Shown here: piece after piece, positions 22,194 through 44,656 of the stretch | Position numbering within the stretch: position 1 is the stretch's first letter | Layout of the letters: every line of letters begins with the position of its first letter | DNA from: Williamsia deligens | Lineage (GTDB): Bacteria > Actinomycetota > Actinomycetes > Mycobacteriales > Mycobacteriaceae | Direction: 5' to 3' | Assembly (NCBI RefSeq): GCF_024171765.1 | Contig: NZ_JAMTCI010000001.1 | Span: forward strand, 2,342,796-2,406,795 | Length of the DNA: 64,000 nucleotides | Made by a program: the position numbers and the translations under genes | Notes under the pieces: model-generated | Database searches by the model: none | Told to the model about the DNA's origin: nothing | The model's input: only the letters and a program-made list of their open reading frames with translations

Positions 22194-23297
22194 ATGAGAG
22201 CTTCGATCCGGTGGTCCCTCGTGTGGACGGTGGTTGCCGTGATGCTCACCGGCACAGCGTGCGCCGTCCATGCCGAGCCCGCCCCGGGTGGGCCGAGGAC
22301 GATCGCCGTCTCGGCTGCCGGATTCACCCTCGACGGTGACCGATGGTGGCCGTCAGGGATGGACGCCTACCAACTCGCCACGAACTGGTCGATCAACCGC
22401 GGTTGCGGTGCCCAGGTCGATCTCGACGCCTACTTCGGCAGCCTGCCCCCGAACGCCCTGACCCGCTTCGACCTCTTCGCGGCGCTTGCCGTGAACAAGT
22501 TCACCGGTGCGGTCGACTTCCGTCCCGCCGACGCGGTGTTCGCGGCGGCGGCCCGCCACGGCCAGCTGGTGCTGCCCGTTCTCACGGGTGGCGACGGGGC
22601 TTGCGAGAGCGGTGATTTCAAGCAGCGCGACTGGTACGTCGACGGGTGGAAGACCGAGGTGGCCTTCGGTGGGATGACGTTCCAGCAATGGCTCACCACG
22701 GCGGTCTCGCGGTGGCGAACCTCTCCGGCCCTGGCCGGATGGGAGCCGGTCGGCGAACCGGAACCGGGTGTGTGTGGGCGCACGTGCAGCTTCCCCGACC
22801 GCACCTGTCCGCCGGACGCGAGCACGGTGCTCCGGGCGTTCTTCGACGCCGCCGGCGGGGCTGTGAAGGGCCTCGATCCCGGACGGCCGGTGTTCTCCGG
22901 CCTCGCGGGCGGCGGCCAATGCGGCAGTGCTGGTGATGACTACGAGTCGGTCGGACGGTCGCCCGGCATCGACGTCCTCGACTACCACGACTACGGAGCT
23001 GACGGCGTCGCGCTACCCGGTGACCAGTGGAACGGTCTCGCGCGCCGGATCACCCAGGCGCACGCAGCAGGGAAACCCATCGTGGTGAACGAGATCGGAC
23101 AGAACGCGGGGTCGTGCGCCACCGTCGACGACCGCGCGGCCGACGTGCGCCGCAAGGTGACCGGACAGCGGACTGCGGGAACCGCGGGCGCCCTGTTCTG
23201 GGCGTTCGTGCCCGACCCGCGGAACAACCAGTGCACGTTCGACATCGGACCCGGTGACCCGCTGTTCGGGTTGGTCGCGGACATGGTCAGTTCCTGA
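22194..23297 (+). CDS. Secreted clan GH-A glycosidase (GH5-like)
   Basis: A 367-residue secreted protein: signal peptide about 1-27 (cysteine at LTGTAC could allow lipidation, but the lipobox is poor), then a (beta/alpha)8 domain starting GFTLDGDRWWPSGMDAYQLA. Likely acid/base is in WEPVGEPEPG and nucleophile in KPIVVNEIGQN, the spacing expected for clan GH-A such as endo-beta-mannanase. Six or more Cys suggest disulfides. It converges with, and overlaps by 11 bp, the end of the synthase operon at 23287-29976, making it a candidate trimming or length-setting glycosidase like BcsZ in cellulose systems. The substrate is inferred only from context. Confidence 0.78.
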   Translation: MRASIRWSLVWTVVAVMLTGTACAVHAEPAPGGPRTIAVSAAGFTLDGDRWWPSGMDAYQLATNWSINRGCGAQVDLDAYFGSLPPNALTRFDLFAALAVNKFTGAVDFRPADAVFAAAARHGQLVLPVLTGGDGACESGDFKQRDWYVDGWKTEVAFGGMTFQQWLTTAVSRWRTSPALAGWEPVGEPEPGVCGRTCSFPDRTCPPDASTVLRAFFDAAGGAVKGLDPGRPVFSGLAGGGQCGSAGDDYESVGRSPGIDVLDYHDYGADGVALPGDQWNGLARRITQAHAAGKPIVVNEIGQNAGSCATVDDRAADVRRKVTGQRTAGTAGALFWAFVPDPRNNQCTFDIGPGDPLFGLVADMVSS

Positions 23298-24972
23298 CCA
23301 CGCGATACACCCTCCAGGTGGGGAGATCGCCCGCGACGTTCGGGAACTCCAGGTCGAGCCGACCGATCTGCGCACCGTCGTCATACAGCGTGGGGTAGCG
23401 CTGGTTCACCGCGTCGGCGACCCCACGCCCGCTCCGCGGTACCGCGAGGATGTAGACGATCCCGAACCGCGACGGGTCGTTGAGGATCTCGGTGAAATCC
23501 TGGTCGGACGGGATGACGTAGCGGCGGGGATCGGTGGTGCGCGCGACCACGGCGAAGCCGTAGAGGGTGTCGACCAGCACGCTCCCGTCGGGAAGGTGTT
23601 GTGCATCGACCCACGACGCGATCTGACGTTCGGTCGAGAACGACGCCGCGACGCGACGGTCCTTCGCGACGCGCACACCGGCTGCGGTCGGGTCGTCCAG
23701 GACGGTCGTGCGCAGCGCCGCCTCCTGCGGTGCATACCGCTGCGACGCCATCAGGCCCCAGGCGGTGGGGATGCTGACGGCGGTGGCGGCGACGACGATC
23801 GTGGCCACGATGACCTGGAATCGCGCTGTCGGCGTGCGGATGACACCGGGGCGCTTCCGTCGGCCCGGTCGTCGGCTCGGTACCGGCGCTCGCGCCGACA
23901 GCGCGAGCATCGCGACGATCACACCGAGCGGCACCGCGGTGATGTAGAAGCGCAGGAAGCCGAACGTGGTTCCGGTGACGTAGCTCGCGCCCTGGAACGC
24001 GAGCACGGCACCGAACACCGCGACGGGTGCGCCGATGGGAGCCACGCGTCCGAGCGTGACCCGTCGCGCGCCGATCACGACGACTCCGAGCAGGAGCGCG
24101 GGGAACAACAGGAACGAGTCGACGACGACGAAGGCGATCCGGCCCAGCAGGTCTCCCGGGGTCCCGCCGGCCTGCGCGACGATCGCCGAGTTGCCGTACT
24201 CGGAGGTGAACTGCGCCAGCGCATTACCGGTGATGAGCCAGCTCGTCGCGGCCCACGCGACGAACGCGACGAGCGGTGGTGCCACCACGAGCGCCACATC
24301 GACGACGACCCGCGAGATACACCACCGCAACGGGCGCAGTGGGCTGCGGCGCTGCATCGAGACCACCGCGACGACGGCTGCCGCGGCCGCGGTCGCCGCG
24401 ACGGCGTCGTAGCGTGTCAGGTACGCGAGCCCGAGGCAGATGCCGGTCGTCACGAGATCGTGGACGTCGTCGGAGTCGACCCAGCGGACGAGGCGACGTA
24501 CCGCCCAGCACAGGAAGAACAGGAACGGCGCCTCGCTCATCCCGTTGCCGCCGTAGAACACGATCATCGGGTGCAGCGCGAAGAGGACCGTCAGCAGCAC
24601 CGTGCAGACGGTGGGCAGTCGGCGGTCCCGCCCGATGCCCCACACGTGGTACACCGCACCCGCCATGAACACCGACGACATCACGACGCCGGACACCGCG
24701 TCCGCCGTGATCCACGGGAACCACTGCGCGACTGCGACGACGGGCAGCTGCACAAGAGCGGTGAGCGGGGTGAAGACGAAGCCGATGGCGGCGACATGAG
24801 GATCGCGGCTGGAGACCACCGACTGCGCCGACTGGACCCGGGACAGGGCGTCGCCCATGAGGAACTGACGGTCGACGGTGAGGAACCACCCGGCGACGAG
24901 GAACAGTGCGAGCGAGGCACCGAACACCGCGACACCGGGGCGCCGATGCCGAGGGGTGGCCTGCGAGGTCAC
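23287..24972 (-). CDS. Polytopic GT-C glycosyltransferase (mannosyltransferase-like)
   Basis: A 561-residue protein with about ten membrane helices and a C-terminal extracytoplasmic domain from about residue 400. The first loop carries RQFLMGDALSRVQSAQ, an acidic motif expected in lipid-phosphosugar-dependent GT-C enzymes, and later loops have NGMSEAPFLFF and YLTRYDAV. It probably transfers a sugar from a polyprenyl phosphate outside the membrane. GTG 24972 overlaps the stop of the GT2 gene (GTGA). It is the last of four genes chained by 4-nt overlaps and probably modifies the GT2 product. Confidence 0.8.
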   Translation of the reverse strand: MTSQATPRHRRPGVAVFGASLALFLVAGWFLTVDRQFLMGDALSRVQSAQSVVSSRDPHVAAIGFVFTPLTALVQLPVVAVAQWFPWITADAVSGVVMSSVFMAGAVYHVWGIGRDRRLPTVCTVLLTVLFALHPMIVFYGGNGMSEAPFLFFLCWAVRRLVRWVDSDDVHDLVTTGICLGLAYLTRYDAVAATAAAAAVVAVVSMQRRSPLRPLRWCISRVVVDVALVVAPPLVAFVAWAATSWLITGNALAQFTSEYGNSAIVAQAGGTPGDLLGRIAFVVVDSFLLFPALLLGVVVIGARRVTLGRVAPIGAPVAVFGAVLAFQGASYVTGTTFGFLRFYITAVPLGVIVAMLALSARAPVPSRRPGRRKRPGVIRTPTARFQVIVATIVVAATAVSIPTAWGLMASQRYAPQEAALRTTVLDDPTAAGVRVAKDRRVAASFSTERQIASWVDAQHLPDGSVLVDTLYGFAVVARTTDPRRYVIPSDQDFTEILNDPSRFGIVYILAVPRSGRGVADAVNQRYPTLYDDGAQIGRLDLEFPNVAGDLPTWRVYRVVRN

Positions 24973-26471
24973 GTGCCCGGGCCGGGGGCCGGAACCGGGG
25001 GAGGCGTGGGTTGGGCAGTGCTGCTGCCGATCCCGTGGGCGGTCTTCTCCCAGTACGACGGGTTCCGCAACAGCTGCCAGGTCCCCTTGACCGCTGCGAT
25101 GCCCATGAGCACCCAGTAGAAGGGCACGATCAGCGCCGGCCAGAACAACTCGGGTCGATCGTCTTCGCGGATCGCTATCAGCGTCATGTACACCGTGGCC
25201 GAGTTGCCGAGGATCATCGACACCAGCGACGGGTAGTAGATGGCCGGCGGCAGGATGCGTGTGATCTCGGTCGGCTGGCCGAGCACCCAAACGGCCAGCA
25301 TGAACCAGAAGGCGACGTTCAGGCAGGCGATGAGGGGTGTCCCGGCGAAGAGCGTGGCCAGGCGGAAGGTCCCGACCGGGCCGAGGGTGCGTGCCACGGT
25401 GACCGGTGAGCGCATGTGGACCAGGAACGTCTGCAGATAGCCCTTGTACCAGCGCGATCTCTGCCGGATCCAGTTGATCGCATCGATGTTCGCCTCCTCC
25501 CAGGTGGTGGAGTCGAGCACCGCGGTCCGCATCCCGTGCACCGCGATGCGGATGCCGAGATCGGCGTCCTCGGTGACGTTGAACGGATCCCATGCGCCGA
25601 TCTCGTCGAACACACGGCGTCGCAGGTGATTTGACGTGCCGCCCAACGGGATCGGTGATCGGCTCGCCATGAGACCCGGGAGGAGGAAACCGAACCACAG
25701 CCCGTAGTCGGCGGTGAACCACGCGGTGAGTACGTTGTCGCCGGAGTTGTGGAAGTCCAGGCGCGCCTGGATGCAGGCGACGTCGTCGTCGAGGCTGTCG
25801 AAGGCGACCGCGACCCGACGGAGCTGCAGTGGGTCGGGGACGTCCTCGGCGTCGTAGATGGTGACGATGTCGCCGGTGGCGAAATGCAGACCGAAGTTGC
25901 AGGCCTTCGGCTTCGTACGCGGCTTCGCGGCAGGCACGAGGAGCAGCGTGACGGCACCGCTGCTGATGACGTCCGCGGCGGCGGTGATCGTCACGTCGTC
26001 GTCTTCCTCGAGCAACAGCAGGACCTGCAGCTTCTCGCGGGGGTAGTCCAACGACTCCATCGCCGCCACCAGCCCGCCGACCACCTCGGGTTCGTCGTAG
26101 GCAGGTACCAGCACCGTGTAGTTCGGCAGGGCGTCGTCGGCCACCGCGCGTGCGGCGCCGTCGGATACGCGGATCGGGCCTGTCGCCAGCCCTCGTCGGA
26201 AGAGGACGACGCGATCGATGATGGTGGCCACGTAGGCCGTGGTCGCTATGGCGGCGAGCACGGTGAGGGTGCCGGTCGTCGCGAGCACCAGGCCGACGAC
26301 GACGACGACCAGCAGTGCCACCAAGGACCACTTCTGCCAAGGGACGAACGCCACCGACGCGGACAGGTGGGGCCGGTTCAGGCGGATGCCGTCGACGGCG
26401 TCGGCGAGGGCCTCGGCGACGGTGGTGCCGTCCGCGGTGGCCGGCATGGGCACGTCACCGGGTCGCGTCAC
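24969..26471 (-). CDS. Processive family-2 glycosyltransferase, cellulose-synthase-like
   Basis: A 500-residue protein: two N-terminal helices (about 48-86), a cytosolic GT-A domain and about four C-terminal helices (from about 365). Catalytic motifs are in order: VPAYDEPE, IYDAEDVPDP (about 205-214), FNVTEDADLGIR (TED at about 300) and QRSRWYKG (QxxRW at about 337-341). These mark a processive beta-glycosyltransferase that extrudes its own polymer. No PilZ domain is seen, so direct c-di-GMP control is not apparent. GTG 26471 overlaps the upstream stop. Polymer identity is unknown; glucan or mannan are possible. Confidence 0.88.
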   Translation of the reverse strand: MTRPGDVPMPATADGTTVAEALADAVDGIRLNRPHLSASVAFVPWQKWSLVALLVVVVVGLVLATTGTLTVLAAIATTAYVATIIDRVVLFRRGLATGPIRVSDGAARAVADDALPNYTVLVPAYDEPEVVGGLVAAMESLDYPREKLQVLLLLEEDDDVTITAAADVISSGAVTLLLVPAAKPRTKPKACNFGLHFATGDIVTIYDAEDVPDPLQLRRVAVAFDSLDDDVACIQARLDFHNSGDNVLTAWFTADYGLWFGFLLPGLMASRSPIPLGGTSNHLRRRVFDEIGAWDPFNVTEDADLGIRIAVHGMRTAVLDSTTWEEANIDAINWIRQRSRWYKGYLQTFLVHMRSPVTVARTLGPVGTFRLATLFAGTPLIACLNVAFWFMLAVWVLGQPTEITRILPPAIYYPSLVSMILGNSATVYMTLIAIREDDRPELFWPALIVPFYWVLMGIAAVKGTWQLLRNPSYWEKTAHGIGSSTAQPTPPPVPAPGPGT

Positions 26472-28018
26472 CGCTCCACCGCCCGCTGTGCGGCTCCCAC
26501 CTGGGTGTCCACCATCGACTGCGCTGCCGCGACGAGCATGTCTCGGTCTTTGTAGACCGGCCGCTCGTCCTGGACGATCGTGTTGCCGCGCAACAGGATC
26601 GCGAGGACGTCCGTGGCGGTGGACACCGGCGTGAGTTCGGGGGTGGGGAAGGGCGCGCCGTCACGGTGGTCGTCGACGGCGAGCAACTGGATGCTCTGCG
26701 CGGTGTGCCCGTCACTCCATCGCCAGGTCAGCCGGGTGTAGGTGAGGTAGCGCTTGTCGTCGACCAGTGTGCCCAGTTCGCCGCGCACGCCGTGTCCCAG
26801 CGGTACGGGCACCATCGTGCTGAGCCGCACCCCGGACAGGTCGTAGACCATGTAGACGGGATACACCGACAGCAGGATCGGGCGTCTCGTGGTGATGGTG
26901 TCGACGACGATGACGCGACGACGTCCCTCGTTGTCCCAGGCCGGATCTGCGACGCGCGCCGTCAGTCGCTGCCGGGTCATCGTGCCCTTCTTCCCGTACA
27001 GGCGGCCCGCGAAGTCGTATCGGGTCAGTTCGGTCTGGTCCCAGAGGGCGGGGACTGCGGTCGGTCCGTTGGTGGGGAGCCCCGGCACCACCGGGCGCGG
27101 GGGACGGATGTCGCCGCTGGGGACGGTGACCAGGGCGAGTGCCGCGGTGGCGACGGCGATGGTGGCGACGATCCGCCAGGAGCCCGGTGCGACGACCGGC
27201 CGGGTGGGCATGCGGACGAGGTTGTTGGTGACGCCGAAACGTCGGATGTCGTCGCCGTAGAGCACCACGCCCGCCGCCACCCCGGCCGCGAAGGCGGGGA
27301 GCGAGATGACCAGAGGCGGTGACGGATTCGCGGCGAGGAGCTCGAGGAGCACGAGTGTGGTCGCGCCCACCACACCCGCGGTGACAGCGCCGAGGACCAC
27401 CCGCGACAGGTTCGGTCCGGCGGCCAACGCGGCGGACGACACGGCGGTGAGGATCACGACGACCGACGCCGACACCGCCGTCCCTCCCAGCAACAGTGTG
27501 AGCAGCCGGATGGGGAAGGGAAAGGTGGCGAGGAGGATCAGCCAGGATCCCCGATGGCGGAGGGTCGGCCGCGTACCGAACATCAGCACGCAGGACGCGA
27601 AGACGAACATCCACAGCGCCAACAGGTCGAGGTGCAGTGTGAGGTAGACGTCGGAGAACCGTGGGACCAGCTTGTACTGGACGACCCACGCCAGCGCCAA
27701 CAGGATGACGCCGACGATGCCGTCACTCTGGCGGTCGTGGATGGGGAGCTGCGCGTGGTCGCGGGCGAGCACGCCCATCGCGACCATGACGGCACCCAGG
27801 ATCACGATGGGTTGGTAGACCATCAGGTTGCCGGTGGCCATCTCCCGGACCAGCGCGACCAGGGTCGAGTGGAAGGCGAGTCCCGTCGCGACGATGATCA
27901 CCGACCACCGGACGAGCATCGTCACAACCGCCCGGCGCCCGTCGAACCCGTCCGTCGGTGCGGGCGGGAGGTCGTCGTCGGGTGAAGCGACGGGGACAGC
28001 AGGATGGGCGCTGGTCAT
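26468..28018 (-). CDS. Polytopic membrane protein of the synthase operon (remotely exosortase-like)
   Basis: A 516-residue protein with about eight membrane helices (about 30-290) and an extracytoplasmic C-terminal domain of about 200 residues with TRYDFAGRLYGKKGT and SVYPVYMVYDLSG. The N-terminal half (LPIHDRQSDGIVGVILLALAWVV, then LILLATFPFPIRLL) recalls exosortase-type folds and the C-terminal domain vaguely recalls EpsI. However, the catalytic Cys/Arg/His set of exosortases is not evident, so this is a weak fold-level guess. It lies between BcsB-like and GT2 genes with ATGA/GTGA overlaps on both sides, implying a structural role in the same complex. Confidence 0.65.
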   Translation of the reverse strand: MTSAHPAVPVASPDDDLPPAPTDGFDGRRAVVTMLVRWSVIIVATGLAFHSTLVALVREMATGNLMVYQPIVILGAVMVAMGVLARDHAQLPIHDRQSDGIVGVILLALAWVVQYKLVPRFSDVYLTLHLDLLALWMFVFASCVLMFGTRPTLRHRGSWLILLATFPFPIRLLTLLLGGTAVSASVVVILTAVSSAALAAGPNLSRVVLGAVTAGVVGATTLVLLELLAANPSPPLVISLPAFAAGVAAGVVLYGDDIRRFGVTNNLVRMPTRPVVAPGSWRIVATIAVATAALALVTVPSGDIRPPRPVVPGLPTNGPTAVPALWDQTELTRYDFAGRLYGKKGTMTRQRLTARVADPAWDNEGRRRVIVVDTITTRRPILLSVYPVYMVYDLSGVRLSTMVPVPLGHGVRGELGTLVDDKRYLTYTRLTWRWSDGHTAQSIQLLAVDDHRDGAPFPTPELTPVSTATDVLAILLRGNTIVQDERPVYKDRDMLVAAAQSMVDTQVGAAQRAVER

Positions 28019-29976
28019 CGTTCGGCCCGACGCCGTCGCCGCCACACGAACCAGCCGACGCCGCTGATGATCAGGACGGCGGCCACCGCGGCCGCGGACG
28101 CGACGATGACGCCGGAGTGGCTGCCGTCGTCGGCGACAGTCGCCGTCTGCTCCGACGGGCTGTCTGTTCCGGGGATGACCACCGGTGTCCGACCGTCGAT
28201 GGTGACGAGGGCGGCTCCGTCGAGTGACGACCACCGCCGCGGATCGGAGGTCAGCCAGCCCAACACGGAGTCGAGCTGTCCCGGGTTCCCGTTCGACGAC
28301 GCCACCAGGACGCTGCGACCGTTGCTTCGCGCGACCTGCAGGGCCCCGATCTTGACGGTCGAGGTCAGGGTGAGCGACCGTCGGCGGTTCGGCTGCGATT
28401 CCGACCCCAGGGGGTCCACGGTGACGAGGTCTCCGCGCGCGGTGATGGGCAGGGTCGGGATGTCCTGAGCCGATCCGTCGGCGTCGATGATGACCGCGGG
28501 CGTCGACGAGGTCTTCGCCTGGGCGAGGGGTACGACGTCGATGCCCAGCGGCGTGGCCGTCAGGCTCTGCAGCCCGGCCGCGATGGTGACGGCCCGTGCC
28601 ACGTCGGGCAGATCGCCGTGCGTCCAGGCGAACTGGGCCCTCGGCTGGAGCGCCTGGGGGAGTGATCCGAGGCCGGCGGGGACCGGCGGGTCGGCTCGTC
28701 GGAACTCGACGGCCCCGGTCGGATCGAGAGACAGGGAGATCCGTTGCGCCTGGTTGCAGCCACCCTGGTCGTCTCCGCGTTCGAGCGAGACGGAGAGATC
28801 GACGTATCGGCTGAGGATGCGGTCCGGCACGTCCACCCACTGGTCGACCGCGCCGGAGCCGTCAGCAGGCCAGGAGGCGAGCGTCGTCATCCCGGACCGC
28901 ACCACGATGCGGCCGCCGCTGTTGGACGGCAGCGGTGTGTAGGTCGCGCGGACCTCGAACCGCACGGACTGGGCGGGTCCGGCGAGCCGGGTCTGGTCGA
29001 GTCCGAACGCGACGACCGCCCGTCCGGTACCGCCGGACTCGCTGTCGCCGACACCGAGATCTGCGAGGGTGCGGATGGTTGGGGTGACCTGTGGGGCCGG
29101 GGCCGACTGACCGGCGACGGCCGCGGACGCGACCGCGACGGTCGCCAGACGAGAGGTGATGAGATCCGATTGGGTGACCAGGTCGGTGCCACGTCCGCCG
29201 ATCTGCAGGTACGGGCCGAAACGACCTGTGCGCAGCGCGGTTCCGCGAGGCGCGCTCTCCGCGAGGACGACCTGACGGACCGTGGGGCTCTGCGCGACAT
29301 CCGGTTCGCCGGTGGCGGGGAGTGCTCGGGTGCGGATCGCGATGGGCGTCGGCTTGTAGCGGCCGACGATCGCCGACGCCGTGGCGATCGCCGCGGATGC
29401 CTCGGACGGCGACGGGTTCGCGGGCAGGAACAGATCGACCGCGGTGAGGACCGGCGGAAGGAAGTCGGCGACTGTGGCGGGAACGGTCGGGTTCCCGCTG
29501 TAGGCGACGGACATCCGCACCACCCGGAAGGGCGTCTCCGGGTCGAACCGGCAGGCCCCGTCGCCGGTGAGGGACGTCCGCAGCGTGATGTCGGCGGCGT
29601 TGTCGGTGACGTCGGCCCCGGTGAGGTTCCACCGCACGGGGGTGGACGGGGCGCTGCCGAGTATGACCCGCGACAGGAACGTGTCACCGCTGTAGGCGTC
29701 GACGGTCCCGCCCGTCACACCGGGCGGCAGGTCCGCCGTGCCGCGCAACTCGGTGGGCGACGTCCCTGGATCGACCGGGACTGTGAGGCTGTACTGCGCC
29801 TGCGGTGAGTCGAACTCTGCCGTCGCGGCCGTACCGAGCGCTGACAGCGGCTGTGGTGCCACCGGGTCCCCGGGTGCCGCTGCAGCCGGCGCGCCGATCA
29901 GGAGAGCGACCCCGATGGCCGACACCACACACAGGAACCGTACGCAGACCACCAGGTCCCCATTTCTCGACCGCAC
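28015..29976 (-). CDS. BcsB-like extracytoplasmic subunit of a polysaccharide synthase
   Basis: A 653-residue protein: signal peptide (about 9-34, ending APAAAA), a long beta-rich extracytoplasmic region, one C-terminal membrane helix (about 622-645) and an Arg-rich tail (WRRRRRAER). Length, topology, the repeated domain pattern and the gene order before a cellulose-synthase-like GT2 match BcsB, which guides the polymer out of the synthase. Conserved-looking segments include LPANPSPSEASAAIATASAIVGR and LPSNSGGRIVVRSG. GTG 29976 gives the full frame; GTG 29952, 5 nt after GGGGA, is an equally likely start. First gene of the operon. Confidence 0.75.
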   Translation of the reverse strand: MRSRNGDLVVCVRFLCVVSAIGVALLIGAPAAAAPGDPVAPQPLSALGTAATAEFDSPQAQYSLTVPVDPGTSPTELRGTADLPPGVTGGTVDAYSGDTFLSRVILGSAPSTPVRWNLTGADVTDNAADITLRTSLTGDGACRFDPETPFRVVRMSVAYSGNPTVPATVADFLPPVLTAVDLFLPANPSPSEASAAIATASAIVGRYKPTPIAIRTRALPATGEPDVAQSPTVRQVVLAESAPRGTALRTGRFGPYLQIGGRGTDLVTQSDLITSRLATVAVASAAVAGQSAPAPQVTPTIRTLADLGVGDSESGGTGRAVVAFGLDQTRLAGPAQSVRFEVRATYTPLPSNSGGRIVVRSGMTTLASWPADGSGAVDQWVDVPDRILSRYVDLSVSLERGDDQGGCNQAQRISLSLDPTGAVEFRRADPPVPAGLGSLPQALQPRAQFAWTHGDLPDVARAVTIAAGLQSLTATPLGIDVVPLAQAKTSSTPAVIIDADGSAQDIPTLPITARGDLVTVDPLGSESQPNRRRSLTLTSTVKIGALQVARSNGRSVLVASSNGNPGQLDSVLGWLTSDPRRWSSLDGAALVTIDGRTPVVIPGTDSPSEQTATVADDGSHSGVIVASAAAVAAVLIISGVGWFVWRRRRRAER

Positions 29977-31261: not shown

Positions 31262-32116
31262 TCAGTGCCCGAGCTCTCCCCATGACGTCAGGCCGGTCAC
31301 ACTCCTGAGCTCGTCGTCTGTCAGAGCAGGGCGCGGCGTCCATCCGACGGGTTTGCGCGCGACCATCGACCACGTGTCCCTCGTCGAGGGGAACACGCGA
31401 CTGAACAACAGGTAGGCCTTCCGCAGGCGGGCGGGGACCTTCTCCAGCATGTGGTGCACGCCCGCGATCTCCAGGACTTCGAGCCCGAGTGCGACCGCCA
31501 GCCGGGAGCAGTCGTCGGCGGTGTACTCCCGGACATGTCCTCGCCAAGTGCCCGGATACCAGTAGTAGGTGTCGAACTGGGGGTGGATCGAATGTCCTCG
31601 GACTGCGGCGATCCGCTTGCGCAGGTTCAGGTGGTTGGGGACGGTGACGAACAGCAGGCCTCCGTCCCGGACCCGCGAGAGCAGCTCGATCAACAGATCC
31701 CGCGGCGAGTCGTGCAGGTGCTCCAGCACGTCGTGGAGCATCACCACGTCGAACTCCCCGGTCGGGGGTACTCCCGTGCCGTCCACAACGATGTATTCGA
31801 TGTCCTCGTGCTCGGCGAAGCGGAGTATCGCCTCCCGGGAATCGCCGCGGACGTGCCACTCGTCGGCGAGGTCATCCATCGCGGTGCATCGATAACCCAA
31901 CTCCGCGAACACCGCCGTCTTGTCCAGCGGGCCTGCACCGAAGTCGAGGATCGCAGCCCCGGGTTGGACGAACCTGGTCAGTGTCGCCGCAACCGAGACA
32001 TGTCCTTTCTCGGCGGGGTCGAAGTAGTTCGGGAAAGGAAACTTGGCGACCACACGTTCTGCGGCGGCGCGAATCTCGGTGAGATCGACGTTGTCAGGCA
32101 TCGCTGTCCTTGTCAT
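31262..32116 (-). CDS. Class I SAM-dependent methyltransferase (UbiG-like)
   Basis: A 284-residue protein with motif I AAILDFGAGPLDKTAVFAEL, then DVVMLHDVLEHLHDSPRDLL and GGLLFVTVPNHLNLRKR, the usual order for Methyltransf_11/23 enzymes acting on small molecules or lipid-linked sugars. ATG 32116 overlaps the stop of the DUF4012 gene (ATGA), so the two are co-translated. Together with the neighbour at 30473 it suggests O-methylation of an envelope glycan or carrier; the acceptor cannot be told from sequence. Confidence 0.8.
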   Translation of the reverse strand: MTRTAMPDNVDLTEIRAAAERVVAKFPFPNYFDPAEKGHVSVAATLTRFVQPGAAILDFGAGPLDKTAVFAELGYRCTAMDDLADEWHVRGDSREAILRFAEHEDIEYIVVDGTGVPPTGEFDVVMLHDVLEHLHDSPRDLLIELLSRVRDGGLLFVTVPNHLNLRKRIAAVRGHSIHPQFDTYYWYPGTWRGHVREYTADDCSRLAVALGLEVLEIAGVHHMLEKVPARLRKAYLLFSRVFPSTRDTWSMVARKPVGWTPRPALTDDELRSVTGLTSWGELGH

Positions 32117-33924
32117 GAGGTGCACGGACGCCCGTCCACCCGGACGGAGGCGGGCCGAGTGAGTGGTTGCGTCGGGATCAGGGCAGGGGAATCACGGCGG
32201 GGCATGTCGACCGAGAACGCCAGGCGTGCAGGCTCGCCCGGCGCAAGGTCCACCACTGCGAACGAGACCGGCCGGCGGTTCTCGACACCTGTGCCGAAGG
32301 GAGTGGGTCGGCCGTCGAGGGACACCGAGGTGGTGCGGGACGCCCACGTGCCAAAGAGGTACACCGACAAGCGGTTGCTTCGCGGGGGCAGCCTGCCGCC
32401 GTCAGGTACATAGGGGAGGAATGTCCCGAGCACCTCGGGAGCGTAGCGACCCTGCGGTGTCGAATTCGTCAGGATCACCGTGACCGTGACCTGCTGCCGC
32501 GTCGCGGAACAAACGCCATAGGCCACTCTGATGGCGCGATCGAGGAAATAGTCGAGTTTGCTGCCGTATGAGTTGTTCACGAACACCCCGACATACGGAT
32601 CTGGAGTGAACGGCAGTTCGCCGGCGACAGGTGTCACGGTCAGCTGTGCCTGCTCGGCCGACGAACTGCTCCACACGGTGATCCGTGACGAGTTTGCCGC
32701 ACCGGCGATTGCGGTCACCAGTTCGTGCGCGTCGAACCTCCCCTGCATGATCTTCACCAGGGTCAGCCGTGCGACTTGTCCCATGACCGTTTTCCGCCCG
32801 GCCCTGTCGTCGCCGAACTGTTGGTAGCTGTCGAGTCCGATGAAGGGGATCACCGAGTCGGCGGTCACGGTGCGGTCATCGTCCAGGGTGACGCCGCCGA
32901 CGACGCGCAACACATCCGACAGTGCGTGGGAATCGATTCCGACCACGATGTCCGGTTCTATCCCCGTCTGCTGTCTCGTGAGACTGCGCCAGATTCGGGC
33001 CGCGTACGGGAAGGAGGGACTCAGGTTGGACGTCTGCCAGAGCTGGGTGGGTTGTGCGAATCCGTACAGTCCGCGGTAATCCGCGCCGAGGTCTGTCGGC
33101 GCCTTGGCTGGGCCGGCGAGGTCTTCGACGATCCTGAGTATGCGCATACGGCCGCGGTCGAAGCGGACGACGACAAGACCCCCGGGAAGGCCGCCGGTGG
33201 CCCGGGCCTCGCTGTCGTTCTCCACGACGATGGCCATCGTCCGCGGGGCGTCGGCCCCCAACATCGACGGGACCAGGTCCGCGGCTGTCGACGCCGCCGA
33301 CAGGGATCGGTCGAGTGCGGACAGCTCATCGATGACCCGGGATCGGATCCTGTTCACCTGTGCGGCCCATGTCTGCCCTGACGAGCGGCGTGCATCTCGT
33401 AATGCGCTGCCGATGGCGGCATCTGCGGACGACAGTGAGGGCGCCGCGTCTCGGATCGCGGTGACGTCGACCGCGCCACCGACGACGACAGGTCGTCCGA
33501 GCGCGTGTCGAGCTCCGTCCACGGCGGACGGTAGGGCGTCGGAGGCGACAGAATCGAGGACGTCGGTCAGTTCGGCTGTGACCCGGAACGGTTCGCCGAC
33601 CCACGGGATCGCGGCGAGTATGCGCAGGGGAGGACCGTCCGCGGCAACCCGCAACCGATCCGCCACTCGCTGGGTCTCTGCAACCTGCGTTCCGACGTCC
33701 GGTGCACCTGCCATGGCGGCTGCTTCCGTGGCGGACAGATGCCGTTCCAGCGCGCGGGCCTCGTCGCGGGCCGACACGATGTACACGGATGCCCACGCGG
33801 CGAAGGCCAGGAGCGCGAGCGACGCCGCCAACCCGCACCGCGCCACCGTGCGTCCGCCCGGACGGCGTCGGCGGCGTCGTCTGCCGGGCCTCGTTCCGGC
33901 TGCCGGCACCCGTGAGGTGTTCAT
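32113..33924 (-). CDS. DUF4012 membrane-anchored protein
   Basis: A 603-residue protein with an Arg-rich N-terminus (RPGRRRRRRRPGGR), one membrane helix (about 30-52) and a large extracytoplasmic domain. The DUF4012 core is clear: RTMAIVVENDSEARATGGLPGGL, YRGLYGFAQPTQLWQTSNLSPSFPYAARIW, SYQQFGDDRAGRK and FVNNSYGSKLDYFLDR. DUF4012 proteins recur in actinobacterial exopolysaccharide loci, sometimes near LytR-CpsA-Psr-type genes, but have no proven activity. ATG 33924 follows GGAGGT by 7 nt. It is divergent from the sortase operon. Confidence 0.87.
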   Translation of the reverse strand: MNTSRVPAAGTRPGRRRRRRRPGGRTVARCGLAASLALLAFAAWASVYIVSARDEARALERHLSATEAAAMAGAPDVGTQVAETQRVADRLRVAADGPPLRILAAIPWVGEPFRVTAELTDVLDSVASDALPSAVDGARHALGRPVVVGGAVDVTAIRDAAPSLSSADAAIGSALRDARRSSGQTWAAQVNRIRSRVIDELSALDRSLSAASTAADLVPSMLGADAPRTMAIVVENDSEARATGGLPGGLVVVRFDRGRMRILRIVEDLAGPAKAPTDLGADYRGLYGFAQPTQLWQTSNLSPSFPYAARIWRSLTRQQTGIEPDIVVGIDSHALSDVLRVVGGVTLDDDRTVTADSVIPFIGLDSYQQFGDDRAGRKTVMGQVARLTLVKIMQGRFDAHELVTAIAGAANSSRITVWSSSSAEQAQLTVTPVAGELPFTPDPYVGVFVNNSYGSKLDYFLDRAIRVAYGVCSATRQQVTVTVILTNSTPQGRYAPEVLGTFLPYVPDGGRLPPRSNRLSVYLFGTWASRTTSVSLDGRPTPFGTGVENRRPVSFAVVDLAPGEPARLAFSVDMPRRDSPALIPTQPLTRPASVRVDGRPCTS

Positions 33925-34129
33925 GTGTCCCACCTCCGCCGTTCGGGACGACCTTGGATCCGCCGGTCACCGGTGTGTCGAAACGGCGCCTGACCTGCAC
34001 AACCGGGGATACAGTCGTACTGTACTGGTTCACGAGTAACCGATCTCGAACTTTGTGCGACATCAGTAAGTGAGGAATCAGCATTCAGCAACCGATCCCG
34101 AACAGTCACTGATCCCTGAAGGGCGACCT
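33925..34129. promoter_or_regulatory. Divergent promoter region with TACAGT-CGT-ACTGTA repeat
   Basis: This 205-bp spacer separates the DUF4012 operon from the sortase/fucose operon. A perfect 6-bp inverted repeat with a 3-bp centre lies at 34010-34024, central enough to control both directions. It could be an operator or overlap the two -10 regions. Confidence 0.4.
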
Positions 34130-34477
34130 ATGACCAGACAGCGCGCGACGTGCGCATCTCGTGGCTGGGCGGTCCTCGGTGCACTGGTCTTCACCGTCGC
34201 TGTTTTCTTGCCTGTCGACGCGTCCGCTGCTCCCTACCCGCCGGTCCCGCCGACTGTCGCGGTGTCCTCTGCTGTCGTACCGGGCGCGGCATCGCTGGTT
34301 CCGGCGACGCCCGCATCCGACAAGGTCTACGTGGCACCTGGAGAGTGGCCGGTTCAGGCGCCGACCGGAGCAGGCAGCCCAGACGTTCGCCGCGACCTGC
34401 CGGGGTGGGGCCTCACGGCAGGCCTGATCGCTGGTCTCGGTGCAGTGCTGCTCGTTCGACTCGTCCGCCGGTCATGA
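34130..34477 (+). CDS. Small secreted protein with C-terminal membrane helix, partner of the sortase
   Basis: A 115-residue protein: signal peptide about 1-33 (ending VDASA), a Pro/Ala/Val-rich middle (AAPYPPVPPTVAVSSA) and a C-terminal end of LPGWG, a hydrophobic helix (LTAGLIAGLGAVLLVRL) and basic residues (VRRS). This is the architecture of a sortase substrate, though LPGWG is not a standard LPXTG motif. The next gene, a sortase, starts inside its stop codon (ATGA). It could be the sortase's substrate or an accessory membrane protein. ATG 34130 with an AAGGG site. Confidence 0.65.
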   Translation: MTRQRATCASRGWAVLGALVFTVAVFLPVDASAAPYPPVPPTVAVSSAVVPGAASLVPATPASDKVYVAPGEWPVQAPTGAGSPDVRRDLPGWGLTAGLIAGLGAVLLVRLVRRS

Positions 34478-35154
34478 CCCAGATGACTCGCGTGGCGCCG
34501 ACGCTCCGTGGGTTGTCGATGGTGTTGTCGTGCGTGGCGTTCGCCGCGGGCTGCGCCGACCAGTCCGAGCCGACGACGCGGCCTTATCCGGTCGGCGACC
34601 CACCAGCGCAATCCCGGGCGCTGACGAGTGAAGTCCCCGCATTCGACGTTCGCACGGCGACCATGACACCCGGCCACGTCTTCATCCCGGCAATCGGGGT
34701 CAACACGACGGTGATGCGGCTCGGCACCCACACCGCGGCCGACCCGTTCGTCGACGGTGCTCGTGTATCGACCTTCGACGTACCGCCTGACCTCTCACGC
34801 GTCGGATGGTGGGCGGACGGCGCAGCCCCCGGCCGATCGGGGATGGCAGTTCTGTTGGGGCACAGCCAGGCGGGCGGCGGGTACGCCGTGTTCAACAGAT
34901 TGGCCGATCTCGTTCCCGGTGACGGGATCCTGCTCGATGACGCTCGGGGGCGCGGGCGCCTGCAGTACAAGGTCACCGAGGTCGTCACGGGGATAGCGAA
35001 AACGGATCCGGCGGCTCTCCGTCGGCAGCTCTCGGTGCACTCCGCCACCGATCAGCTCGCGCTCATCACCTGCAGCGGCGACTTCGACTCCTCGGTTCGC
35101 GAGAGCGAGGACAACACGGTGGCCTTCGCCGAACTCGCCGGGGGTGCCCGATGA
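34474..35154 (+). CDS. Class F-like sortase
   Basis: A 226-residue secreted transpeptidase with an N-terminal signal (about 1-27, Cys in FAAGC could be lipidated). The sortase beta-barrel shows HVFIPAIGVNTTVMRLG, the catalytic His in AVLLGHSQAGGGYAVF, the catalytic Cys in LALITCSG and a following Arg in SSVRESEDN. Class F sortases are the actinobacterial single-domain type with unclear substrates. It overlaps the small upstream gene and the downstream fucose-synthase gene by 4 nt each, tying it to polysaccharide or glycoconjugate assembly. The reaction (cleave and transfer a C-terminal signal) is known for the family; the acceptor is not. Confidence 0.85.
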   Translation: MTQMTRVAPTLRGLSMVLSCVAFAAGCADQSEPTTRPYPVGDPPAQSRALTSEVPAFDVRTATMTPGHVFIPAIGVNTTVMRLGTHTAADPFVDGARVSTFDVPPDLSRVGWWADGAAPGRSGMAVLLGHSQAGGGYAVFNRLADLVPGDGILLDDARGRGRLQYKVTEVVTGIAKTDPAALRRQLSVHSATDQLALITCSGDFDSSVRESEDNTVAFAELAGGAR

Positions 35155-37237: not shown

Positions 37238-37807
37238 GTGTTACTGGCCAGGGCCGTGCACGTGGCGCGCGGGGAGATCGACCTGTGGTTGCGCGACATC
37301 GTCCTGAACTCCGTGCTGGCAAGCCGGTGGATCCCGCGCATGGTCCGGCCCGCACTTCTGCGTCTGGTCGGCCACAAGGGCGTGCACCCGAGGGCGTTGA
37401 TCAGCGGGGGCTGCTTTATCGGTGCGTGGAGTGGGCTGACCGCCGAGCGTGGCGTATTGATCAACCACGGGTGTTTCTTCGATCTCGGTGCGCCCGTGGT
37501 GTTACGGAAGAATGTGGCGCTCGCCTACGAGGTCATGGTCATCACGTACACCCATGACATCGGTCCGGCCACACTTCGCTCCGGTGAGCACAGAACCGCG
37601 CCGGTAACGATCGGCGAAGGGAGCTGGGTGGGGTCCCGGTCGGTGATCATGCCGGGGGTGTCGATCGGATCGGGCTGCGTCATCGGCGCGGGCAGTGTGG
37701 TCACCTCCGATTGCGTCGACAACGGTGTCTATGCCGGCGCACCGGCCCGTCTACGGCGAATCCTCGAGGCCGACGGCCGGCCCCGTTCGACGGTGCCAGT
37801 TGACTGA
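37238..37807 (+). CDS. Hexapeptide-repeat O-acetyltransferase
   Basis: A 189-residue protein with N-terminal helices and a C-terminal left-handed beta-helix: hexapeptides in LINHGCFFDLGAPVVLRKNV, VTIGEGSWVGSRSVIMPGVSIGSGCVIGAGSVVTSD and the closing VYAGAPARLRR; His in VITYTHDIGP is the likely catalytic residue. Members acetylate sugars using acetyl-CoA. GTG 37238 lies 7 nt after AGGGAGG and is preferred over TTG 37172. It overlaps the next gene's TTG start by 8 nt. It probably acetylates a sugar of the polysaccharide built by this cluster. Confidence 0.8.
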   Translation: MLLARAVHVARGEIDLWLRDIVLNSVLASRWIPRMVRPALLRLVGHKGVHPRALISGGCFIGAWSGLTAERGVLINHGCFFDLGAPVVLRKNVALAYEVMVITYTHDIGPATLRSGEHRTAPVTIGEGSWVGSRSVIMPGVSIGSGCVIGAGSVVTSDCVDNGVYAGAPARLRRILEADGRPRSTVPVD

Positions 37808-39344
37808 CGTCGCGGCCCGGCCGGTGCACGCACCGTCGCGCCCACCGGTAGCCCACGCGAGCACACGGACCAGGAACATCCTGCTCGTCGCGGCCGGCGC
37901 CACCTCCGTCATCCCGGTGATGACCTATGCGGCCACAGGCTTCTCTTTCGTGTGTCTCGTTGCGGTGGTGCTGTACTTCCAGCGACTCGGGGACCGGCGG
38001 CTGTGGCTCCCCCTGGGGGCGGCGTCCCTGGGGAGCATCGCTTATGTGACGTCAGCACTGGTGAACGGCACGTCGCTCCTCGCTCCAGGGGTCCCGTCCT
38101 TTCCCGCCTGTGGGCTGTACTTCTGCGGCATCGTGCTCCTCGCTCGCAGCATCCGAGAGACTGTCTCAATCCTGGCCGGTGCCGCGTTGGGCACTATCGC
38201 CTTCTATCTCGTGTTCGGTACCGCACTGACCGAGAGTGAGTTGTTCGCGAACCTGTGGAAGTACGGATGGGCGCCCTCGGTGACCGTCCTCATTCTGGTC
38301 TGCCTGACCCGCGGCGACAAGGCTCGTCCCTGGTGGGGATGCGCGGCGCTGCTCGCCATGACCGTGGTCAGTGTGGGTCTGAACTTTCGCTCACACTCTC
38401 TGTTGTGCCTCGTCGCCGCGGTGTTCGTGGCGACGGACAGAATCCGCGTGCGAGCGACGCCGGTGACCGCCAAGATCATCACCGGTCTGGTGCTGGCGGT
38501 GGCAGGATCGGTGGCGTTGCGGCTCGCGGCCGGCGCCGGATGGCTCGGTGCATCGCTCACCGAGAAGATCGAGTCCCAGGCCGGCGATCACGTGCCGACG
38601 ATTCTCGCGGGTCGGAGTGAATCGCCGTTGTCGCTCACCGCGATCGCAGCCAAGCCCGTTCTGGGTTGGGGCAGCGCGGACAACATCTCGCCGGAGGTGT
38701 TCGAGAGGGCCTACCAACTCGCCCTGAAGATCGGCTTCGACTCGTCGTACCCGTTCGAGTACGCCTGGCGCTTGCCGGGCGGCGCTGTGTCGCTGCATTC
38801 CATCCTTCTGGGGTCCACGGCAGAGGCTGGGTTCCTCGGGGCCCTGCTGCCGCTCTACCTGATCGGCGTGTGCGTCGTCCTGATCCGGCTCGCACCCGCC
38901 AATCCTGTGTGGGCGACGCTGTTGACCTACCTGGGTGTACAGGGAATCTGGGACTTGCTGTTCTCGCCGTGGAGCTACAACCTCCCCGTCGTATATGCCG
39001 CCGAGACGGCGTTGGCTGTGGCCATACTTGTTGCCAGGAACCACGGTCGTGCGGCCTCGGCCGCCAGGGTGATCCGAGGAGGTCCGGGTGAAGACGGACG
39101 CGACGGTCAGCGTCATCATCCCGACGATCGGGCGATCGTCCCTGCGTTCGGCGGTGCACTCGGCTCTGGATCAGACGGCGGCAGTCCTCGAGATCCTGGT
39201 GGTGGCCGACACCATCGATCCGGTCCAGACGGGAACGGACGATCCGCGGGTGACCGTCATCCACACCGGTTCTGGGCACGGACCGGCCCGGGCGCGCCAG
39301 CTCGGGGTGGAGAGAGCGTCGGGCGACATCGTGGCGCTTCTTGA
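37800..39344 (+). CDS. O-antigen ligase/polymerase-like membrane protein (Wzy candidate)
   Basis: A polytopic protein with about ten membrane helices and a large extracytoplasmic loop (about residues 240-340) holding VPTILAGRSESPLSLTAIAAKPVLGWGS, the usual Wzy_C/O-antigen-ligase pattern. It should polymerise or ligate lipid-linked repeat units outside the membrane. TTG 37800 overlaps the preceding stop; the start is uncertain. Membrane character ends near 39050, yet the frame runs on to 39344, overlapping the next gene by 257 nt with a Gly/Arg/His-rich non-natural tail. A one-base loss near 39.0-39.09 kb would instead let it stop at 39091 as GTGA with the next start. Confidence 0.75.
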   Translation: MTDVAARPVHAPSRPPVAHASTRTRNILLVAAGATSVIPVMTYAATGFSFVCLVAVVLYFQRLGDRRLWLPLGAASLGSIAYVTSALVNGTSLLAPGVPSFPACGLYFCGIVLLARSIRETVSILAGAALGTIAFYLVFGTALTESELFANLWKYGWAPSVTVLILVCLTRGDKARPWWGCAALLAMTVVSVGLNFRSHSLLCLVAAVFVATDRIRVRATPVTAKIITGLVLAVAGSVALRLAAGAGWLGASLTEKIESQAGDHVPTILAGRSESPLSLTAIAAKPVLGWGSADNISPEVFERAYQLALKIGFDSSYPFEYAWRLPGGAVSLHSILLGSTAEAGFLGALLPLYLIGVCVVLIRLAPANPVWATLLTYLGVQGIWDLLFSPWSYNLPVVYAAETALAVAILVARNHGRAASAARVIRGGPGEDGRDGQRHHPDDRAIVPAFGGALGSGSDGGSPRDPGGGRHHRSGPDGNGRSAGDRHPHRFWARTGPGAPARGGESVGRHRGAS

Positions 39345-42303: not shown

Positions 42304-43535
42304 GGATCACGGTCATCGGTGCCAACTATTCGCCGGAGCCGACAGGGATCGCCCCCTACACGGCCGCTGCTGTCGAGTACCTCCACGCCCGTGGTCACCT
42401 CGTGCGCGTGATCACCGGGTATCCCCACTATCCGCAGTGGCGTGTCGACGAGCGGTATGGGGGGCAGGCAATCGACGAACGGATCAACGGCGTCGAGGTT
42501 CACCGCGTCCGCCACAGCGTGCCGTCGACGATGTCGGCGGCCCGGCGGGCCAGGTTCGAGTTGTCCTTCGGTCGCGCAGTGGTGACCTCCGCCGCCTTCC
42601 GGGCTGCGCGCACCAGTGATGTCGTCGTCGTCGTGTCCCCAGCGCTCTTGGCGAACGCGGTCATCGTTCCGGCATTGCGCCTGGGTGCACGCCGACCGGC
42701 GATCGGCGTCTGGGTCCAGGATCTCTACACCCAGGGGGTACAGGAGACGGGAATCGCAGGGCAACGAATCGTGGCCCGGGTGGAGTCGACGGTGATACGT
42801 CAGGCCGACGGCGTGGCCGTTCTGCACCCGCGATTCGCCTCGGCGCTCGAGGCCATCGGTGTAGATGGCTCACGTATCTCTCTGCTGCCCAATTGGACTC
42901 ACATACCCGTCGACCGACGCAGGGGCGACCGCGGGGCTGCCCGCCGAGCGCTGGGGTGGCGGGACGGGGAAGTGGTCGTTCTGCACGCCGGCAACATGGG
43001 TGTGAAACAGCACCTGGACAATGTGGTGGAGGCCGGCCGCCTCGCGCAGACAACAGGCGTTGACGTCCGCTTCGTACTCATGGGCGACGGAAATCAGCGG
43101 GCGCGGTTGGAACAGGGGGCATCCGGGGTGGGGACCGTCCAGTTCGTCGATCCACTCCCCGAGCGCGAGTACGTGGCTGCGTTGGGGGCAGCCGACATCC
43201 TGCTCGTCAACGAGGCCGCGGACATCTCCGACATGGCGGTTCCCAGCAAGTTGACGTCCTACTTCATCAGCGGAACTCCGGTTGTCGCCGCCACCCGCGA
43301 GTACAGCCTCACTCACGACGAATTGGTGAGGTCGGGTGCCGGACTGCGAGTCGATCCCGGCGACCCGGCAGCTCTGCTCGAAGCCGTCACCGAATTGGCC
43401 GCGGATCCGATTCGGGCCGCCGAGATGACCCGCCGTGGTTCCGCCTACGCGCGATCGACGTTGGCGGCGGACACGGCGCTCGCGCGTGTGGAGGACTGGG
43501 CGACGTCGCTCGTAGGCCGCGATCAACGCCGGTAG
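42300..43535 (+). CDS. Family-4 glycosyltransferase (WcaI-like)
   Basis: A 411-residue GT-B enzyme: N-domain MRITVIGANYSPEPTGIAPYTAAAVEYLHARGH and VITGYPHYPQWRVD, linker GVWVQDLYTQGVQETG, and C-domain VVLHAGNMGVKQHLDNVVEAG, FVLMGDGNQRARLE, ADILLVNEAADISDMAVPSKLTSYFISGTP with the donor-binding Glu/Pro region. The pattern is that of WcaI of colanic acid (fucosyltransferase family), fitting the fcl/gmd genes nearby. ATG 42300 overlaps the flippase stop (ATGA). Its last 13 bp overlap the convergent glycosidase gene. Confidence 0.87.
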   Translation: MRITVIGANYSPEPTGIAPYTAAAVEYLHARGHLVRVITGYPHYPQWRVDERYGGQAIDERINGVEVHRVRHSVPSTMSAARRARFELSFGRAVVTSAAFRAARTSDVVVVVSPALLANAVIVPALRLGARRPAIGVWVQDLYTQGVQETGIAGQRIVARVESTVIRQADGVAVLHPRFASALEAIGVDGSRISLLPNWTHIPVDRRRGDRGAARRALGWRDGEVVVLHAGNMGVKQHLDNVVEAGRLAQTTGVDVRFVLMGDGNQRARLEQGASGVGTVQFVDPLPEREYVAALGAADILLVNEAADISDMAVPSKLTSYFISGTPVVAATREYSLTHDELVRSGAGLRVDPGDPAALLEAVTELAADPIRAAEMTRRGSAYARSTLAADTALARVEDWATSLVGRDQRR

Positions 43536-44584
43536 GCGGCCAGGACGGCGCGCAGCGACGGTTTGACGGAGAAGTTTGAGCGCACCAGGCCGTAGTTGTA
43601 ATCCGGCACCGCACTCCCGGTGTCGATGTCACGGAGGGTGAAGACGAAGGTCGGTCCCGCGAAATCCAGCTGCCGCAACAGTGAGACCCCCGTGTAGAGG
43701 ACTTGTGCCTGTTGTTCGTCGGATACCCCTGTGGGGGGTGTGCCCGTGTTGGAACCGAACTCAGTGAACCAGACCTTCCGACGGGTGTCGCCGCGGTACT
43801 TCATCACCTCGTTGACTTGCGCGATCTGACCGGTCGACGTGTTGGGTCCGGTCTGCCGACCCAGCAGGGTGTTGCCAGGGTAGGGATGCATCGCGACAGC
43901 GTCGAACGAGTTCGGAGCACAGGTGTAGAGCGCGTTCACGAAGTTCGCCGGGGACACCGAGCTGCTCGTGTCGGCGGCGGGGGAGGTACCCCCGGTGATC
44001 ACGAGGGCAGAGGGCGCGGCGGCTTTGATCGCCGTGTGACTCCGCCGCAGGATGTCGCAGTACCGGTTGACGTCCGGGACGGGGCCGAAGTTGACCGCGA
44101 TGTTGGGTTCGTTCCAGACCTCCCACGCCGACACGAGCCCGCGGTAGCGGGCGGCGGCCTGACCCGCAAAACGGGCGAACTCGGCGGCCGACTGTGGCGC
44201 GGGATGGGAGTAGCTGCGTTGATACGGATCGACCGCCCACGCGGGGGCCCAGGTCACCACCGCAAGGATCTGCAGCTGCCGGGCAGCGGCAGAACGGATG
44301 GTCTTGTCCAGCGGGCCCCAGTCGAACTGTCCTTGTTCCCGCTCGATCTCCGACCACCTGACGGGGACGCGAATGGCAGTGAAGCCCTGCGCGGCCGCGA
44401 AATCGAGCTGTTCGTCGGTCCGTGCTCCGAGCTCCTCGAGGCCCGGAAGACTCAACGACATGGTGTCGCGGGACCATACGGCCGGCCGGGGGCTCGGCGA
44501 CTCGTCCGGGGCCGGTGGTCGACCTGCTGAGCATGCGGGGACGAGCAGCAGGATTGCCACCAGCAAGAGGAGCGCGGACCGCAC
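43523..44584 (-). CDS. Secreted/lipid-anchored clan GH-A glycosidase (GH39-like)
   Basis: A 353-residue exported protein with a lipoprotein-type signal (about 1-20, cysteine in LLLVPACSAG). The catalytic barrel has RVPVRWSEIEREQGQFDWGPLDKTI, acid/base in AWEVWNEPNIAVNFG and nucleophile in KVWFTEFGSNTG. The family resembles GH39/GH5 beta-glycosidases found in exopolysaccharide loci such as PslG. GTG 44584 lacks a good ribosome site, so the start is tentative. It opposes the biosynthetic genes, with a 13-bp convergent overlap, and is divergent from the acetyltransferase at 44657. It probably trims or releases the polymer. Confidence 0.82.
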   Translation of the reverse strand: MRSALLLLVAILLLVPACSAGRPPAPDESPSPRPAVWSRDTMSLSLPGLEELGARTDEQLDFAAAQGFTAIRVPVRWSEIEREQGQFDWGPLDKTIRSAAARQLQILAVVTWAPAWAVDPYQRSYSHPAPQSAAEFARFAGQAAARYRGLVSAWEVWNEPNIAVNFGPVPDVNRYCDILRRSHTAIKAAAPSALVITGGTSPAADTSSSVSPANFVNALYTCAPNSFDAVAMHPYPGNTLLGRQTGPNTSTGQIAQVNEVMKYRGDTRRKVWFTEFGSNTGTPPTGVSDEQQAQVLYTGVSLLRQLDFAGPTFVFTLRDIDTGSAVPDYNYGLVRSNFSVKPSLRAVLAAYRR

Positions 44585-44656
44585 AAGAGACAGCGTAGAC
44601 GGCCCGCTGCACGTCAATGCTGGTTCTGCATCGCAGGCGCGGCATACCATTACGGC

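Follow-up and report, generated by a model that had tools for sequence, protein, structure and literature searches.

This study concerns a 64,000-nucleotide stretch of the Williamsia deligens genome (RefSeq assembly GCF_024171765.1, contig NZ_JAMTCI010000001.1, positions 2,342,796 to 2,406,795 of the forward strand; hereafter the window) and an operon of four genes within it, denoted B, M, G and C. These encode, respectively, a secreted BcsB-like protein, a polytopic membrane protein, a cellulose-synthase-like glycosyltransferase of family 2 (GT2) and a glycosyltransferase of the GT-C type; a gene for a secreted glycosidase, H, converges on the operon. Judging from its sequence, M is homologous to exosortases but no longer has their catalytic residues, and the four products together are probably a conserved machine that makes and exports a surface polysaccharide. 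The reading that we favour, with a probability of roughly 0.6, is that the operon encodes a Gram-positive BcsA/BcsB-like polysaccharide synthase in which a dead exosortase has been kept on as a structural component of the G complex. What is new is a Gram-positive BcsB/GT2 synthase with an exosortase pseudoenzyme as its conserved partner.

Conservation of the B-M-G-C cassette

The distribution of the cassette was assessed in 121 genomes from the family of the window genome, using a single-protein search for B and a profile search for M. B is present in 55 genomes and M in 53, all of which are among the 55, and none of the 66 genomes devoid of B carries M (Fisher p = 2e-32, a value not corrected for relatedness). 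Within the window's own genus, represented by eight listed genomes, B and M occur in only two, the window genome and one other; C is likewise missing from the other six.

Of the 54 other genomes with B, 40 were sampled for gene order, the DNA surrounding B being fetched at ∼20 kb per locus (18 kb in one case). In 33 of these loci the four genes are contiguous and ordered B>M>G>C, and in 36 all of them lie inside the fetched stretch, so that the arrangement cannot be put down to chance; H is found in 31. An initial annotation of the window, made from the sequence alone, had staked its proposal of a synthase-dependent polysaccharide system on the co-occurrence of the four genes elsewhere, and co-occur they do. 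The seven non-contiguous loci comprise two with B alone, one with fragments of M and G, two in which M-G and B-C are opposed, one with the order M-G-B-C and a further B nearby, and one at a contig end. These exceptions show M-G and B-C acting as two sub-units within the cassette.

One orphan B (L039 9011-11080, genome G029) sits among genes that by eye resemble those for ribosomal proteins, with M, G and C not beside it. A relative of M, 38.6% identical and annotated as 'archaeosortase/exosortase family protein', is encoded on the plasmid NZ_CP113799.1 of Rhodococcus pyridinivorans (L119 11950-13419), a host belonging to the Mycobacteriales; B, G or C are not among the annotated genes beside it.

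Alignments A1 to A5 (B, M, G, C and H) were constructed from the 40 loci and contain 37, 30, 33, 33 and 27 sequences, respectively, plus the window protein; not included were sequences whose starts were short or misjudged, those from truncated contigs and a number of near-duplicates.

An exosortase homologue without the catalytic triad

M is composed of helices within residues 27-295 and an alpha/beta domain at about 312-515 (structure model with a predicted local distance difference test score, pLDDT, of 88.1 and a predicted template modelling score, pTM, of 0.87). The window protein matches nothing in Pfam and NCBIfam at E≤1. Among the 31 family members, three are matched by the transmembrane exosortase profile PF09721 (best E-value 1.2e-8), and the NCBIfam exosortase models match weakly, XrtD doing so in six (best 0.0097); the best genome-level matches to PF09721 reach no further than profile positions 117-143 of 254. 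Direct comparison of a single canonical exosortase with A2 gave no match, and the bridge from M to canonical exosortases is provided by triad-bearing relatives from uncultured actinobacteria, described below. The M family profile aligns to these relatives end to end (hhalign, 482 columns, 99.9%, E-value 6.8e-34), and they in turn align to a canonical exosortase with ACSG, NxxR and H in register (72.8%, E-value 3e-5). Through them, M belongs by sequence profile to the exosortase/archaeosortase superfamily. A search of A2 against PDB sequences gave nothing useful, and exosortase was not among the structures listed in the fold comparison of M, where an absent row excludes nothing.

M, which the initial annotation had taken merely for an unknown polytopic protein, can thus be described as an exosortase homologue lacking the residues that a functional exosortase requires. 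When 12 family rows picked for spread were aligned with three triad-bearing rows, the catalytic Cys, Arg and His were all present at the aligned columns in 3/3 of the latter and in 0/12 of the former. The 46 columns preceding the Cys are deleted in all 12 family rows, no ACSG-like motif is found in any of the 31 family members, and the outer-domain motif EACYxFHG has likewise lost its Cys and His. In four loci of one genus (L040, L046, L049 and L050) M is shorter, its middle membrane part being further reduced and both ends kept; an ACSG-like motif was not found by eye in these proteins, which lie outside A2. The identity of the outer domain with EpsI (DUF3485) was considered and could not be shown.

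Eleven columns of A2 are invariant, including D95, R120, R150 and Y392 of the window M. Such residues could mean that M is still an enzyme, its exosortase scaffold having been turned into another transferase or ligase (for instance, one that joins the polymer to an acceptor), and R120, which is not in all triad-bearing relatives, could be a new feature of this kind. However, the loop Asp, R150 and Y392 are common to the triad-bearing relatives, for which fold or partner binding is the simpler explanation, and both the deletion before the old nucleophile and the loss of the outer-domain Cys and His speak against this reading. We regard a new enzymatic activity of M as unlikely.

A triad-bearing sister cassette in aquatic actinobacteria

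Of 396 genomes sampled from the phylum, eight gave a match to the A2 profile; seven of them belong to the window's family, and G470 is the only one outside it. The M-like protein of G470 carries ACSG, NVARI and LHPG. Related M loci are present in G683 (64% identical) and on seven named contigs of metagenome-assembled genomes of uncultured actinobacteria, including that of G470 (L133, CAIQNH010000172.1); the isolate names suggest that the hosts are freshwater bacteria. In the one of these proteins that was scanned, from L131, the PF09721 match spans positions 1-253 of 254 (7.2e-24), and in a more distant protein, from G203, it spans positions 5-252 (6.1e-10); when 66 genomes of its class were searched for the G203 exosortase, only the protein itself was retrieved. 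C215, R260 and H281 are invariant across the eight triad-bearing rows of a further alignment (A9), G203 included.

Six of the seven named loci have a GT2 gene that carries the G motifs and either overlaps M or comes after it; in the seventh, L129, a GT2 gene was likewise read. Before M comes a gene for a secreted protein, S, with the tail SESPITALLPIS...RRRR in L131, L132 and L134 and a similar one in L129, G683 and G470. A relative of C lies before S in L131 (hhalign 3.1e-62, 523 columns), and C relatives are also found at the G470 and G683 loci; B was not found in G683, G470 or G203. The gene set of the sister cassette is C-S-M-G, as against B-M-G-C in the window's family. The initial annotation had placed the GT-C enzyme outside the known systems and suggested that it may decorate the extruded chain; since a GT-C is common to the exosortase-type cassette, C looks less like an addition to a Bcs system than like a long-standing companion of G and M.

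S was considered as a homologue of BcsB or B, which was not supported, no homology being recognisable. Two tails of secreted proteins encoded near triad-bearing M, PEAPVxxLLPVVG...RR and SESPITALLPIS...RRRR, resemble an exosortase sorting signal (Table 1).

B has the fold of BcsB

Fold comparison revealed a full-length BcsB fold in B, and profile-profile comparison also finds BcsB. B thus has the features of a BcsB-type outer subunit of a synthase-dependent system, and the structural match to BcsB on which the initial annotation had also made its proposal depend is there. When A1 was searched against PDB sequences, a BcsB chain was not found, the only match being AlBeta86 (E-value 0.013). The Pfam profile PF03170 alone matches none of 296 genomes of the phylum at E≤1e-3; its control match is present in Bacillus subtilis and fits YdaN, which we take to be a BcsB-like protein. 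The surveys were done with our own family profiles instead of PF03170. The BcsB alignment (A7) includes the Geobacillus BcsB together with five proteobacterial sequences, of which three are incomplete.

The end of B is a hydrophobic helix with a basic tail, in which the LLPxS-like motif of the triad-bearing cassettes is not present. This type of ending, together with the fact that B takes the place held by S in the triad-bearing cassette and with the presence of a sortase-domain gene in the window, would fit a machine that still sorts protein, B being the substrate and M or another exosortase or sortase of the cell the processing enzyme. M, however, is without the triad; the PF09721 matches over the cut-off in 32 family genomes are three M proteins only, with no stand-in exosortase; and B and S are not recognisably homologous. 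BcsB itself carries a C-terminal membrane anchor, so that the tail of B needs no sorting to account for it. We regard protein sorting by this system as very improbable.

The enzymes G, C and H

In Pfam, G matches only glycosyltransferase domains (PF13641, 1.2e-27). The DAED, TED and QRSRW motifs read in it by the initial annotation are present in 34/34 aligned rows, the window included, and the G family profile matches BcsA structures in the PDB with an E-value of 3e-16. Against TIGR03030, the BcsA/CelA equivalog model, G scores 56.3 bits; this is far below the cut-off of 699.1, so that cellulose is not implied. G is 39% identical to a Geobacillus GT2 encoded between BcsB and a GT39 protein. 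A midpoint-rooted GT2 tree with long branches flagged, in which L131, L122 and L123 are without a row, splits the family G from the G of the triad-bearing cassettes; this split was given no weight. C matches PF13231 (1.2e-8, 35.8 bits versus a cut-off of 26.1) and has nine hydrophobic segments, thus combining a PMT_2-type profile with the many membrane helices of a GT-C enzyme.

Six of the 28 H family members match the glycoside hydrolase (GH) family 5 profile PF00150, the window H itself not being among them. The H family profile matches 15 PDB sequences at E≤0.1 (best 4awe, 9.2e-15), 13 of which are named mannanase or mannan endo-mannosidase, one MAN5A and one putative beta-xylosidase. E188 (in GEP) and E300 are invariant in 28/28 rows and supply the two glutamates of GH clan A; their catalytic roles are assigned by analogy. 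With endo-beta-1,4-mannanases as the nearest solved relatives of H, a mannan-like backbone is a fair guess. A polymer rich in N-acetylmannosamine has been proposed for the Clostridioides difficile BcsA/B pair that adjoins a GH113 enzyme (excerpts of PMC7710045).

A different product would be expected if G and C made a glycolipid or lipid-linked oligosaccharide, with no exported polymer and with B as a carbohydrate-binding chaperone. GT2 and GT-C pairs of mycolata commonly use polyprenyl or lipid acceptors, and a BcsC-like exit port is not in the operon. Yet G retains the QxxRW motif of processive synthases in all 34 rows, B has the full length of the BcsB fold, and the linked H is a secreted, endo-glycanase-like protein. 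We consider a lipid-linked end product distinctly unlikely.

Proposed mechanism

In the polysaccharide synthase that we favour, G, by homology to BcsA, would build the chain from a nucleotide sugar at the cytoplasmic face of the membrane and extrude it via its own membrane part, and B, by homology to BcsB, would receive and guide the chain outside. M would descend from the exosortase of a protein-sorting polysaccharide cassette, with its active site gone and its membrane bundle and outer domain kept. Its co-occurrence with the other genes, its conserved features and the loss of sorting chemistry make a structural, non-catalytic part in the G complex its most likely present role. From what is known of its family, C probably attaches side sugars on the outside, taking them from a polyprenyl-phosphate donor. 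H, to judge by its GH5 relatives, may trim the polymer, which would make a beta-1,4-mannan-like or glucomannan-like backbone somewhat likelier than cellulose.

Sequence and model comparisons establish the homologies, the loss of the triad and the conserved linkage of the genes; the physical complex, the polymer and the present roles of M and C are deduced from these. Several points weigh against this picture. B is an orphan in two genomes and the M relative is one on the Rhodococcus plasmid, M diverges faster than G, and the conclusion that the triad was lost rather than gained is drawn from the fact that exosortases widely carry the triad, one canonical case being represented here.

The observations suggest that the export of a sugar polymer can draw on the exosortase fold without any protein being sorted. 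More tentatively, such a sorting-independent role may be general to the fold, the bundle and outer domain docking the GT2 or handling the chain, with one family having lost the sorting chemistry and swapped the sorted protein for BcsB. A dead exosortase makes testable the old puzzle of why exosortase and exopolysaccharide (EPS) genes travel together: if the polymer does need M without the sorting chemistry, it is the scaffold of the exosortase that deals with glycans or with their synthase, which would help explain the exosortase genes among EPS genes. The triad-bearing cassette of aquatic actinobacteria offers a natural control with the chemistry intact. The system would, in addition, define a surface polysaccharide, so far unstudied, in a Gram-positive family that probably has mycolic acids.

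Comparison with known systems

Compared with the Bcs cellulose synthase, B shares the BcsB fold and G the GT2 core and motifs of BcsA, whereas M and C are not Bcs parts and the linked hydrolase is GH5 and mannanase-like, BcsZ being a GH8 enzyme. The absence of PilZ, BcsC and BcsZ pointed out by the initial annotation holds in so far as Pfam finds no PilZ domain in G and no BcsC or other bcs gene lies within the operon, no genome-wide search for PilZ, BcsC or GH8 having been made. The synthase-dependent reading itself stands on the BcsB fold and gene co-occurrence, with three points corrected: the nature of M, the place of the GT-C enzyme and the contention that the system stands apart from known ones. 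BcsB and GT2 without BcsC have Gram-positive precedents in Geobacillus, C. difficile and B. subtilis.

The plasmid CP128455.1 of Geobacillus stearothermophilus, typed as conjugative, carries genes for a sugar nucleotidyltransferase, BcsB, GT2 and GT39 in a row (L121 2952-9689), which form a mobile Gram-positive BcsB synthase module. This module resembles the window operon in its BcsB-GT2 core followed by a glycosyltransferase gene and differs in having no exosortase-type gene annotated in the stretch. The GT39 protein was examined as an orthologue of C and this was not supported (hhalign 0.7%). In C. difficile, a GH113 enzyme is encoded close to the BcsA/B pair (excerpts of PMC7710045), and the B. 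subtilis ydaJKLMN genes are, in the excerpts available, an EPS operon that differs by including a cyclic di-GMP receptor, YdaK.

Clostridial ccsZABHI also combines a GT2, a membrane-anchored carbohydrate-binding partner and a secreted GH5 enzyme with no outer-membrane port; as given in excerpts of PMC7710045, however, CcsB is not a BcsB homologue, CcsA keeps PilZ, and CcsH and CcsI are acetylation proteins. The XrtG system of Lactiplantibacillus plantarum consists of a CTERM protein, an exosortase and two glycosyltransferases (excerpts of PMC12854382), the same four kinds of part as in the triad-bearing actinobacterial cassette. Exosortase genes in general sit among EPS genes, and some exosortases have an EpsI-like C-terminal region (excerpts of PMC1569441). 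The window's family differs from these systems in that the active site is missing and BcsB replaces the sorted-type protein. The GT2 neighbourhood of a Lactiplantibacillus plasmid was also inspected and is not an XrtG system.

No description of the B-M-G-C cassette was found, by title or opening of the abstract, among the matches listed from the open-access literature, subscription papers being mostly outside it. Cellulose synthase, exosortase and BcsB do not occur in the main text of a paper on Rhodococcus EPS (PMC12298843), nor do exosortase, Rhodococcus and Mycobacter in the excerpted main text of an EPS operon survey (PMC7112194).

Operon layout and surroundings

The chain of four overlapping minus-strand genes with a converging glycosidase gene, as read initially, was confirmed in its coordinates and in its ATGA and GTGA overlaps (Table 1). 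The order is B-M-G-C with a 4-nt overlap at each of the three junctions, and the ends of H and C overlap by 11 nt. Third-position G+C (GC) content is 0.84-0.90 in all five genes.

Table 1. Coordinates of the operon genes and their junctions in the window, and of secreted proteins with sorting-like tails in other loci.
Feature	Position	Strand	Remarks
B, BcsB-like, secreted, C-terminally anchored	28015-29976	-	653 aa, GTG start; signal-like helix 7-26, C-terminal helix 624-652
M, exosortase-derived membrane protein without Cys/Arg/His triad	26468-28018	-	516 aa
G, membrane GT2, cellulose-synthase-like (DAED, TED, QRSRW)	24969-26471	-	500 aa
C, GT-C type glycosyltransferase, PMT_2-like	23287-24972	-	561 aa
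H, secreted GH5-like glycosidase	22194-23297	+	367 aa; signal-like segment 9-27
ATGA overlap, B stop / M start	28015-28018	-	
GTGA overlap, M stop / G start	26468-26471	-	
GTGA overlap, G stop / C start	24969-24972	-	
Secreted proteins with sorting-like tails	L113 14607-15359, 10748-11338; L131 2505-3716; L135 3089-3916		aquatic actinobacteria

Past two further genes that adjoin the operon (one for a methyltransferase by Pfam) lies a divergent pair encoding a DUF4012 protein (32113-33933, minus strand; PF13196, 1.9e-29) and the sortase-domain protein (34150-35154, plus strand; PF04203, 3.2e-17). The DUF4012 gene and its two neighbours have no match in the 40 fetched loci. A second polysaccharide cluster, of Wzy-type appearance, occupies 35151-56135 and includes genes for nucleoside diphosphate-sugar epimerases, group 1 glycosyltransferases and a Wzz protein with an AAA domain (45374-46813), as well as sub-threshold O-antigen-ligase matches (37695-39344 and 48738-50042). 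A second GH5 protein (43523-45232, minus strand; PF00150, 3.4e-11) is encoded inside this cluster. GC content is 0.57-0.63 at 50001-62000 and 0.64-0.73 in the rest of the window, a drop that suggests that this part is acquired DNA.

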